Below are positions 31,732 through 34,236 of a stretch of 64,000 bases of DNA, piece after piece. A model generated the notes under the pieces. That model was given only the letters and a program-made list of their open reading frames with translations, was not told where the DNA came from and searched no databases. Source of the DNA: an uncultured Hyphomicrobiales bacterium (lineage in GTDB: Bacteria > Pseudomonadota > Alphaproteobacteria > Rhizobiales > Xanthobacteraceae); the NCBI GenBank assembly GCA_903878085.1, contig CAIRGJ010000064.1, forward strand, positions 1-64,000. The letters run 5' to 3'. A program made the position numbers and the translations under genes. Within the stretch, counting starts at the first letter, position 1. Each line of letters opens with the position of its first letter.

Positions 31732-32163
31732 ATGAACGGGCAAGCAGAACCAAAATTGATTTTTCCGGGACTGGCCGGTTTTTATGCGGCAGTGTCTAAT
31801 CTTTGGTATCCGATGATCCGGATCGTGGCCGTAGCGCCCTTGTTTACGCACGTCTGGCCGAAGCTCATGAACCCGGCCGGCACAATCGCCTTCTTGGGCA
31901 AAGCGGGATTCTCGCCGGTCTTAGTCTACACGGTCATGTTTTTGGAAACGGTCGGCGCGGCCTGCGTCATGATTGGTTTGTTCACCCGCTTCTTCGCCGC
32001 CGCACTCGCCATCGAAATGGCCGTCATTACATTCGTGTACATGCCACCGCAGGGCTGGGCTCGCATGGAGCCCACCTTTATCTGGGGCATCATTTTCTTG
32101 GCCATCGTCTTGCGCGGCGGCGGGCCCTACTCGGTCGACCGCAAGATCGGAAGAGAACTCTAG
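31732..32163 (+). CDS. DoxX family membrane protein
   Basis: This encodes 143 residues with four predicted membrane helices. The first contains a conserved Arg (MIRIVAVAPLFTHVWPKL), and helices 2-4 include LVYTVMFLETVGAACVMIGLFTRFFAAAL. The DoxX/SURF4-like family is linked to quinol oxidases and thiosulfate metabolism, but most members, including this stand-alone one, have no assigned function. A strong terminator follows. Confidence 0.85.
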   Translation: MNGQAEPKLIFPGLAGFYAAVSNLWYPMIRIVAVAPLFTHVWPKLMNPAGTIAFLGKAGFSPVLVYTVMFLETVGAACVMIGLFTRFFAAALAIEMAVITFVYMPPQGWARMEPTFIWGIIFLAIVLRGGGPYSVDRKIGREL

Positions 32164-32192
32164 GCGCCGTTGATCTGATCGCCCGATTTGAG

Positions 32193-32229
32193 CCCGCCCG
32201 CGGACCCATCCGCGGGCGGGTTTTCTTTT
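32193..32229 (+). terminator. Rho-independent terminator after doxX-like gene
   Basis: CCCGCCCGCGG and CCGCGGGCGGG form an 11-bp perfect stem with a 6-base loop, followed by TTTTCTTTT. It lies 30 bases after the stop of the DoxX-family gene. Confidence 0.9.
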
Positions 32230-32304: not shown

Positions 32305-34236
32305 ATGGCGGGCCGCACAAGTTGGAAATCGATTGCGTATCTGAACGCAATCTTAGCTGCCGGCGGCGCGTGTTCGTCGGCTCTAGCGGCCACGCCACCA
32401 GATCCCTGCAATCACGTTCCCAAAACATCGACAGCCGGCGCCGGAGATATCTCGGTAAAACCGTACACATCGTCAACGCTGAATTCTGCGCAATCGCTGA
32501 AGACCTGGCAACGCGAAGGCAAGGAAATTGAAATCTCAATCGTCGGGTGGAAGCCAACCGACTTGACGACGGTGGTCTGCTTCGGCTGGAAAGTCGAGGG
32601 CGGAACCGAAGAGGAAAGACAGAAATTTGGCAAATTTGTACAAAGCCCATCGGTGATCCAATCGGAGCCTGCGGCGGGGTCGGACAAAGCGGCTACGCTG
32701 CCGAAGATAACCAAATTTACCGCAGTCATTCCAACCCTCGACCCTCCTAAGAAGCATGATCAGCCGGGCGACGTCGGCGTGGTGCGCACGCAAAACAATA
32801 CCAATCCAACCGCCGAAGTTCGTCTTCTGATTTTCGGCAACAAGCCAGCCGCGCCCCCACCCGCCAACCCAGACGAGCCGACGGTCGCGCTATTTTCGTC
32901 GATTGGCGTCGTCGCCGCCGACAATTATTGCGACATTCCCGGACTAACGACGAGGACCGATAATGGGATCGTCATCCTCAGCGATCACAAAAATTGGCAA
33001 TCGGTCGGTGGCGAATTTGAATTTACAATCAATTCCACATCACCGCTTCCGCCCGACGCTCTCATTAAGGTGTGTTATCGATGGAAGCTAAAGGCCGGCG
33101 ATCCTGGAGAGTTCTTGGACAGCAGAAATCCTCGCCTCCTCGACAAGCAATCCAGAAGCATCAAAATCGCCTCCCGGGTCCCGCCGATCGAGCACGCGCC
33201 GAGTTGGTTCTCAAAACAACGCGTCGCGGATTACGCCGTTCTGGGAATTGCGGTGCCGCGCGCCGACGTCAGAGTCCTTGTCTTCGATCGCGATGACTCG
33301 CCGGTTGTCGACGTGGTGACGACCGTTGGAATTACCCAATTTTTGGCCGCAATTATCGTGGTCCTTGCCGTGCTCGGAATTGCCAGCTTCGGCCTTGTCG
33401 GCGTCTGCCGGCAAAGGTTATCGCCATCGCACCATGCCAATGCGCTGTTGTGCGTTATCACCAGTCGTCGCGGATTCGCCAGTCTTTCGCAATTCCAGGT
33501 CGTGCTGTGGACATTCGTAGTGCTGGCGTCGTCGATCTATGTCATGGCGCTATCCGGCAGTCTGATCGAGATCACGTCCGGTACGCTGGTCTTGCTCGGG
33601 ATTTCCGGCGCGGCGATTATTACTTCGAAAGCAAAGAGCGAACAGGACGCGGCGAAAGGACCTTCCATGGATCCGGTCGCCACGCGTCAACTCGCAACGA
33701 CGGCGCAAATCGACGCGGACAAACTTAAGGCTAAAGCCGCGTTATTGACCGGCGATGAAAAAAAAGAAGCTGATGCCGCAGCCCGGGAGGCGCAGGCCAA
33801 AGCTGACGCCGCAAAAGCCAACGCAGATGCGGCTGCCGCGGTTGACACCGCCCTGAAGATGCGTGCGACCGCCATCAACTCGACCGATCCAGCTCAGAAA
33901 TCCCAGGCCGCAGCCGACGCGCCTAAACTTGAGGCCGACGCGGATATAAAGCAGCGGGAGATGGCGGATGCGGCCGCCCGCGCTATGCAAGCCGTCAAGG
34001 TAAGACATCCACGCTGGTCGGACCTGGTGATGGAGGAAACCCAGGGCCGCGAACTCGATGTCACACGGGTGCAGATGGTGTTCTTCACCTTGGTCACGGC
34101 CGCATTCGTGTTGCTCACCGTGGCCACGACCTATGAAATTCCCGAGATACCGCAGGGCTTCCTGTATCTCATGGGGATCAGCAACAGCGTCTATGTCGGC
34201 TCGAAATTCGTCAATAATAATGATGCGCGATCCTAG
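32305..34236 (+). CDS. unrecognised membrane protein with duplicated extracellular and membrane modules
   Basis: This encodes 643 residues. A signal peptide (about 1-29) is followed by two related beta-rich periplasmic domains. The first has VVCFGWKVEGG (90-100) and AEVRLLIFGN (170-179); the second has KVCYRWKLKAG (255-265) and ADVRVLVFDR (320-329). One membrane helix lies at about 343-368. Then a two-helix module (389-442) is repeated without gaps at 581-634, ending in GIS...SK each time. Between the two copies lies a 120-residue Ala/Lys/Asp-rich coiled-coil (about 445-570), probably cytoplasmic. No enzymatic motif is seen. Base composition is AT-richer than nearby genes. It stands alone after a terminator and converges with the molybdopterin gene. 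Confidence 0.7.
   Translation: MAGRTSWKSIAYLNAILAAGGACSSALAATPPDPCNHVPKTSTAGAGDISVKPYTSSTLNSAQSLKTWQREGKEIEISIVGWKPTDLTTVVCFGWKVEGGTEEERQKFGKFVQSPSVIQSEPAAGSDKAATLPKITKFTAVIPTLDPPKKHDQPGDVGVVRTQNNTNPTAEVRLLIFGNKPAAPPPANPDEPTVALFSSIGVVAADNYCDIPGLTTRTDNGIVILSDHKNWQSVGGEFEFTINSTSPLPPDALIKVCYRWKLKAGDPGEFLDSRNPRLLDKQSRSIKIASRVPPIEHAPSWFSKQRVADYAVLGIAVPRADVRVLVFDRDDSPVVDVVTTVGITQFLAAIIVVLAVLGIASFGLVGVCRQRLSPSHHANALLCVITSRRGFASLSQFQVVLWTFVVLASSIYVMALSGSLIEITSGTLVLLGISGAAIITSKAKSEQDAAKGPSMDPVATRQLATTAQIDADKLKAKAALLTGDEKKEADAAAREAQAKADAAKANADAAAAVDTALKMRATAINSTDPAQKSQAAADAPKLEADADIKQREMADAAARAMQAVKVRHPRWSDLVMEETQGRELDVTRVQMVFFTLVTAAFVLLTVATTYEIPEIPQGFLYLMGISNSVYVGSKFVNNNDARS

Follow-up and report, generated by a model that had tools for sequence, protein, structure and literature searches.

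The gene at positions 32305..34236 (+ strand) of the window, i.e., of the whole 64,000-nucleotide stretch of DNA analysed here, encodes a two-module membrane protein of 643 aa (ORF P0001). We interpret it as a fused, ectodomain-bearing member of an uncatalogued family, in which two membrane subunits, A and B, would form a complex that is the membrane partner of hydrolases and works in a holin-like manner; the probability of this reading is put at roughly 0.45. The function is a prediction for the family as a whole, and least certain for the window's own copy.

Judging from its sequence, the paired-module family is uncatalogued in the libraries searched. The initial annotation had recognised no known family, and this held for the window protein in Pfam (E up to 10), NCBIfam, PADLOC and PHROGs, which gave chance-level matches only. 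By sequence, the window protein had no PDB match at E up to 1, and the one PDB match of the core profile (Lmo2059, E=0.48) was taken as chance. The open-access literature on the motif and on the nuclease, lipase, holin and two-helix-effector context contained, in the portions consulted, no description of a paired-module family; one paper (PMC11409702) was set aside, its excerpt using the term in an unrelated sense.

Architecture of the window protein

All parts of the protein are encoded on the + strand. The signal-peptide-like N-terminus (residues 1-29; 32305..32391) was recognised by eye and contains a helix at residues 8-19 in the structure model, with low confidence. Two outer beta domains follow, the first (residues 30-190; 32392..32874) with the motif VCFGWK and supported by sequence and by a model of low confidence in this part, the second (residues 191-343; 32875..33333) with VCYRWK, supported by sequence and model and found also in the relative L012. 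A single membrane helix (residues 346-371; 33340..33417), present in the model and as a hydropathy peak at 347-365, precedes membrane module 1 (residues 386-447; 33460..33645; helices 394-417 and 425-450), which is of the B type (SLSxxQ ... LLGIS). An Ala/Asp/Lys-rich helical linker (residues 451-565; 33655..33999) leads to membrane module 2 (residues 578-639; 34036..34221; helices 586-609 and 617-636), which is of the A type (RxQ ... LMGIS..Y..SK). The first reading did not include the helix at 346-371, the split form of the pair in other genomes or the hydrolases encoded beside relatives.

The initial annotation had described a 54-residue two-helix module at residues 389-442 that recurs at 581-634, and this was confirmed by shuffling, by BLASTP and by an independent model of module 1. 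The two segments match without a gap (16 of 54 identities, BLOSUM62 score 60), a score reached by none of 20,000 plain shuffles and by none of 20,000 shuffles that kept the hydrophobic pattern. No other diagonal of the protein is strong, the best 54-residue comparison elsewhere scoring 29, and two-sequence BLASTP gave E=1e-7 with the search space limited to the two sequences. A model made from the module-1 copies in 53 relatives alone, to the exclusion of the window protein and the two orthologues nearest to it, gave module 2 of the window protein 40.9 bits; among 203 multi-helix decoy ORFs the highest score, 10.6 bits, was that of L221, itself a borderline match to the family. The residue pairs that had been named (e.g., Q398/Q590), the GIS triplets (432-434 and 624-626) and the final SK are all present. 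So are the pairs noted in the outer domains, VCxxWKxxxG (at 91 and 256) and A(E/D)VRxLxF (at 170 and 320), where the repeat (37 aa, 38% identity, E=1e-5 by two-sequence BLASTP) is weaker and less secure than that of the membrane modules.

The model of the full protein (mean pLDDT 69.5, 23-row alignment) comprises beta-rich outer domains, the helix at 346-371, two hairpins and the helical linker. A simple hydropathy cut-off finds four of the five modelled membrane helices and misses the last (617-636). Modelled alone, the core of 210 residues has five long helices (mean pLDDT 83.1, pTM 0.75), and a Foldseek search with it found nothing below E=1.6 in the PDB or below E=2.0 among viral entries. 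The Ala/Asp/Lys-rich stretch of 120 residues forms long helices in the full model (pLDDT near 90), and no heptad signal was found in it. Of the two duplications around a coiled coil that had been proposed, the duplications (by sequence and model) and a helical segment between the modules thus stand, whereas the heptad test gave the coiled coil no support. The beta-rich domains that had been called periplasmic do lie behind a signal-peptide-like N-terminus in sequence and model, their sidedness being presumptive; SLSxxQ, the linker and the C-terminus would be cytoplasmic, given an N-terminus that resembles a signal peptide and positively charged residues that follow the first helix.

In a set of 57 ORFs with two modules, the linker measures 131 residues in the window protein, 133 in L011 and 17-77 in the other 55, and L012 has neither linker nor outer domain 1. 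Between the window protein and L011, dN was 0.19 for module 2, 0.31 for the helix plus module 1 and 0.35 for outer domain 2, the least constrained parts being outer domain 1 (0.62) and the linker (0.80); over the whole gene dN was 0.46 and dS, which is saturated, about 3.6. Over 42 core sequences the S and Q of the module-1 motif SLSxxQ never vary, and the residues L, L and G in module 1 and Q, G, S, Y and K in module 2 hardly do. These comparisons identify the two membrane modules as the conserved core, to which the linker is not central; the outer beta domains and the linker are additions to that core. The earlier picture of a sensor or channel-like scaffold coupled to a coiled coil, which is still a candidate, consequently loses the linker as its heart, this part being long only in the window protein and L011 and absent from L012.

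Locus, relatives and the split gene pair

A strong hairpin resembling an intrinsic terminator (32190..32223, + strand; 15-pair stem with 11 G-C pairs, T-rich tail) lies upstream of the gene, as had been annotated, and the gene is indeed AT-richer than its surroundings (GC3 of 0.65 vs 0.80 and 0.83 in two neighbour genes). The flanking genes, named by eye, are presumably purN, a doxX-like gene and a molybdopterin oxidoreductase gene. Thirty-five genomes of the same genus were examined, 31 of them with purN and the oxidoreductase gene on one contig. The gap between the two genes is 2,619 bases in the window genome vs 35-1,811 bases in all 31 (546-712 bases in 21 of them); it is 582 bases in G009, the nearest genome by its purN and oxidoreductase proteins (91% and 82% identity). 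Since all 31 are without room for the gene, the window gene is regarded as accessory, gained or lost at a conserved place. The doxX-like gene (31732-32163 of the window) seems to be absent from G026, in which only 35 bases separate the matches to purN and the oxidoreductase. The copies in L011 and L012 sit among neighbours similar to those in the window, judged by gene length and order; the L012 locus has extra genes, including glutathione-transferase-type and epimerase-type genes.

The nearest relatives are L011 (51% over residues 29-639) and L012 (44% over 226-457). A first whole-protein scan of genome contigs gave no match. The whole-protein search matched 8 of 100 near genomes, and the module profile matched 10 of 120 relatives, 12 of 387 genomes in the class and 12 of 397 in the phylum, the own genome being included each time; the phylum tally has at least one false match, since G666/L096 was recognised as signal peptidase II and dropped. 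In another genus of the same family the profile matched 36 of 242 genomes. The match in G933 was left out of the locus set, and a Pfam match of L017 to Phage_TTP_13 (E=9e-4) was set aside as being below the model's cut-off. Such sporadic occurrence fits an accessory role. No relative was found in phage records (two queries) or in viral contigs (close search), and a phage origin was rejected on these grounds; plasmids gave no match with the window protein as query and one partial match with the B gene of L136. The window genome encodes a second two-module protein on another contig, C4 (L042:6454-7794, - strand). Directly upstream of it and of its relatives L017, L097 and L098 lies a gene for about 817-840 aa, which is GyrB by Pfam in L017, the one scanned. 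Genes in relatives were called by a composition-based picker, and some starts were extended upstream.

Other relatives are split into two proteins of 106-152 aa each (five loci aligned), each consisting of a membrane helix and one hairpin. The scan of named genomes yielded 60 split loci (58 in L102-L159, together with L015 and L016 on the contigs of L101 and L100), many of them from MAGs, in Alphaproteobacteria, Cyanobacteria, Acidobacteria, Calditrichota, Planctomycetes, Geobacter relatives, SAR324, Latescibacterota, Chloroflexi and others. The A gene adjoins the B gene in 59 of the 60, the exception (L150) starting at a contig end. The B ORF as called in L146 and L159 matches the module model twice.

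When sequences were scored singly (62 split loci, with the duplicates L112 and L135 left out, the A genes of seven loci and the B genes of two not entered, and two contig-cut fused proteins left out of the B genes), the module-2 model gave the higher score for all 55 A genes and the module-1 model for 59 of 60 B genes, the margin for B being modest (mean 65 vs 57 bits). Profile to profile, module 1 matched module 2 at E=1e-16, A matched module 2 at 1e-19 and module 1 at 4e-10, and B matched both equally (2e-22 for module 1, 1.3e-22 for module 2). The scores thereby show module 2 as the counterpart of the A subunit and module 1 as that of the B subunit, the B assignment being the weaker. The window protein, with its two homologous hairpins, is therefore B-like followed by A-like, the order in the split form being A then B. 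Halves that are fused in some lineages and adjacent in others are classical evidence of joint action, and we consider it very probable that A and B work together as one membrane complex, carried on one chain in the window protein; the estimate is held down because the profile-to-profile scores of B do not favour module 1.

Hydrolases beside the relatives

An Endonuclease_NS gene lies directly beside the pair and on the same strand in 36 of the 60 split loci, 34 times downstream and twice upstream (L139 and L154). Pfam was run on three of these operon nucleases (L016, L046 and L088), and the others were found by a model built from the three. Caulobacter relatives (L125, L126 and L128) are among the carriers of this A-B-nuclease operon. 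The motif DRGH is present in 27 of the 36 and a related [AD][RK]GH in eight of the other nine, L103 having none in the ORF as called. Within the locus set used for the lipase count given below, the same model found Endonuclease_NS only in split-pair loci. (Note that all counts of hydrolase neighbours are raw, ignore kinship and come from MAG-rich samples, and that a position beside a hydrolase gene does not by itself establish function.) Nuclease adjacency at this frequency and in two gene orders argues against a channel or transporter with a housekeeping task that merely happens to have hydrolases next to it, and we give that explanation very little credence. The window gene's standing alone would suit it, as would a weak match of the full model to KirBac (E=1.7e-3); the TM of this match is 0.11, however, the core alone gave nothing better than E=1.6, and the GYG/GFG signature of the selectivity filter of KirBac-like potassium channels is absent from the window translation as read; the KirBac resemblance was rejected.

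A wall hydrolase adjoins the pair in nine of the other 24 split loci: a muramidase (L142), Amidase_2 (L143, L147 and L156), a GH25-LysM enzyme (L148), an M23 enzyme (L150) and VanY-type enzymes (L152, and by similarity to it L153 and L155). Six of the seven wall enzymes inspected by eye (L142, L143, L147, L148, L152 and L156) start without an obvious signal peptide, as endolysins do. By the same inspection the M23 enzyme has a lipoprotein-like N-terminus, and most inspected nuclease N-termini look like signal peptides; these enzymes would therefore need no holin to leave the cytoplasm. Such a mixture also bears on the view that the pair is an export or anchoring factor, holding or moving the hydrolase at the inner membrane without gating. 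Its partners work at or outside the inner membrane, and the C-terminal parts of the L148 A protein (L148:4384-4938) and the L152 B protein (L152:4887-5609) match a LysM-type and an endolysin-type profile, respectively, both of which agree with it; one docking face, however, does not fit partners of which some have signal-peptide-like N-termini and some do not, and we consider the view distinctly improbable. The two C-terminal matches fit poorly with a cytoplasmic C-terminus.

Further genes were observed near some of these pairs: a caspase-domain gene after the A-B-amidase cluster of Geomonas paludis (L156:6404-8122), a large gene that follows the muramidase gene and has a patatin-type match (L142:2619-6011) and, about 2.6 kb from the pair and left out of the partner count, a gene that by eye resembles a peptidoglycan-binding domain joined to a chitinase-type enzyme (L136:8005-8886). 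No hydrolase partner was identified in 15 of the 60 split loci (L134-L138, L140, L141, L144-L146, L149, L151 and L157-L159), several of which were without a neighbour scan. Scanned neighbours among them were unrelated, namely GH15 (L138), a phosphatase (L140), a dehydrogenase (L141), a MORN protein (L144) and a FAD synthetase (L146), and the Pfam-scanned neighbours of L151 and L157 matched no family.

Regarding the fused form, a gene for a Tle1-like phospholipase follows it on the same strand in 15 loci, namely L091 and 14 of the 36 loci in one genus (L089, L090 and L188-L221, among which L188 is a split locus and L221 is doubtful). The identity of the lipase comes from a Pfam run on four of the 15 (PF09994). 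Where ORF calling left the starts unextended, the two genes share 4 bp (L090 and L210) or are separated by 9-36 bp. In one split locus, A, B, nuclease and Tle1-like lipase genes stand in a row (L120:3398-6853, + strand), so that two partner types share one locus. Other neighbours of fused genes in the same genus are a metallophosphoesterase (L202 and L203; weak by Pfam), a trypsin-PDZ protease with an esterase (L216) and a PAP2/vanadium-chloroperoxidase-type protein (L218 and L220). The module gene is present only as adjacent pieces in L209 and L213, as is the lipase gene in L201 and L213, and in these genomes the pair is apparently in decay.

These partners invite comparison with effector-immunity systems, in which the modules would shield the producer from the neighbouring hydrolase. 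Amidases, muramidases and nucleases all belong to classes that serve as antibacterial effectors. An immunity protein is usually specific for a single toxin, however, and here one conserved core accompanies unrelated enzyme chemistries, while the window gene and many fused genes stand alone. We therefore regard immunity as quite unlikely, despite the tight coupling of the fused gene with the lipase gene and the use of the lipase class, DUF2235, as an antibacterial effector (PMC3482391, in the part consulted).

Outside that genus, 15 fused loci had neighbours that were at least partly scanned, and a partner was found only in L091 (the lipase) and L014, which has an SNase-type nuclease and an M48 protease; L053 adjoins a gene of the Ribonuc_L-PSP family, which was left out of the partner count. 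Fused loci without a Pfam neighbour scan include L042, L048, L092, L097, L098, L099 and the contig-cut L044/L045. Beside the window gene and its orthologues L011 and L012, no hydrolase of nucleic acid, wall or phospholipid was recognised by eye (the L012 neighbours were also scanned).

PADLOC gave no match for the membrane proteins tested: it assigned no family to the window protein, the L015 pair, the L016 nuclease or the lipases of L090 and L091, and only a weak SNase match to L014. No VgrG, PAAR or Hcp was matched among that part of the neighbours which was scanned. The same results bear on an envelope-stress sensor or regulator, in which the outer domains or modules detect damage and activate the hydrolase as an abortive or defence-like switch. 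Different effectors beside one membrane part, and outer domains that vary in the fused forms, are what such a switch would lead one to expect; the split form, however, is almost without an outer part, and PADLOC offers nothing beyond the SNase match, so that this explanation is judged unlikely.

Predicted role and comparison with known systems

We return to the reading of the family as membrane partners of hydrolases, which is probably its general role. Since the split form has hardly anything besides membrane helices, the core action should take place in the membrane, where the A+B complex would release, gate or license the neighbouring hydrolases. The identified partners share a theme, the destruction of nucleic acid or of the envelope, and some look exported and others do not; a gate or permeabiliser that gives the enzyme access to its substrate is therefore preferred, the complex acting as a holin does or permeabilising the membrane in a regulated way. 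As a mechanism, holin-like gating is a tentative prediction, with the odds leaning against it. That the window protein itself still serves a hydrolase falls somewhat short of an even chance; its outer beta domains may sense or restrain, and its partner hydrolase, if any, would be encoded elsewhere.

A wider interpretation, which we offer as speculation and think rather unlikely in full, is that A+B is the core of a cross-phylum class of lysis or cell-death systems, a paired gate with interchangeable EndoG-like periplasmic nucleases, Tle1-like phospholipases and wall hydrolases. The alphaproteobacterial nuclease version would then be a bacterial counterpart of the EndoG arrangement in mitochondria, and the window protein would descend from such systems as a fused form that stands by itself and carries an outer sensor of its own. 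If true, this would be a general bacterial device, unnamed in the libraries searched, that joins one membrane core to several unrelated lytic enzymes; it would open to testing how Alphaproteobacteria control their EndoG-like nucleases and Tle1-like lipases, and would serve as a model of the role that such nucleases had before mitochondria.

The kinship of the operon nucleases with EndoG/EXOG is a lead, suggested by PDB comparisons of two of the 36. The L016 nuclease (L016:5244-6176) matched EXOG at 3e-29 and Serratia nuclease at 5e-18, and the L126 nuclease (L126:5395-6252) matched EndoG-type chains at about 2e-21 and Serratia nuclease at 2e-15; both are closer to mitochondrial EXOG/EndoG than to the Serratia or Anabaena nuclease. 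A periplasmic site would correspond to the mitochondrial intermembrane space. The window genome's one Endonuclease_NS match is of a more distant type (best 1.3e-6, matched domain only) and lies on another contig, away from the module matches. The likeness to EndoG/EXOG therefore belongs to the neighbour enzyme of the split relatives, not to the window protein.

SLATT and S-4TM effectors are two-helix membrane units in conflict systems with exchangeable effectors; Pfam, which we take to hold models of both, gave no match for the window protein at E up to 10. Tle1-like/DUF2235 phospholipases are represented by the PF09994 genes directly behind fused module genes, the T6SS label that Pfam gives to PF09994 being a family name. 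A search of the window genome for such a lipase gave no match, and neither did its control.

A further comparison is with holin-endolysin cassettes and type 10 secretion. The paired-module family differs from these in having no phage relatives for the queries used and no holin sequence match: Pfam found no holin family in the B genes of L015 and L016, and the best holin in PHROGs was at E=0.096 (gene A of L016), with none for the window protein. It differs further in its two homologous subunits and in its nuclease and lipase partners, which outnumber the wall enzymes. Holins are small, with one to four membrane helices, a size that the window protein exceeds with its 643 aa and that the split pair, at 106-152 aa, fits; and a wall hydrolase, not recognised beside the window gene, is present at 9 of the 60 split loci. 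There, as in the cassettes, small multi-helix membrane proteins are encoded directly beside a wall hydrolase, and several of these hydrolases are without an obvious signal peptide.
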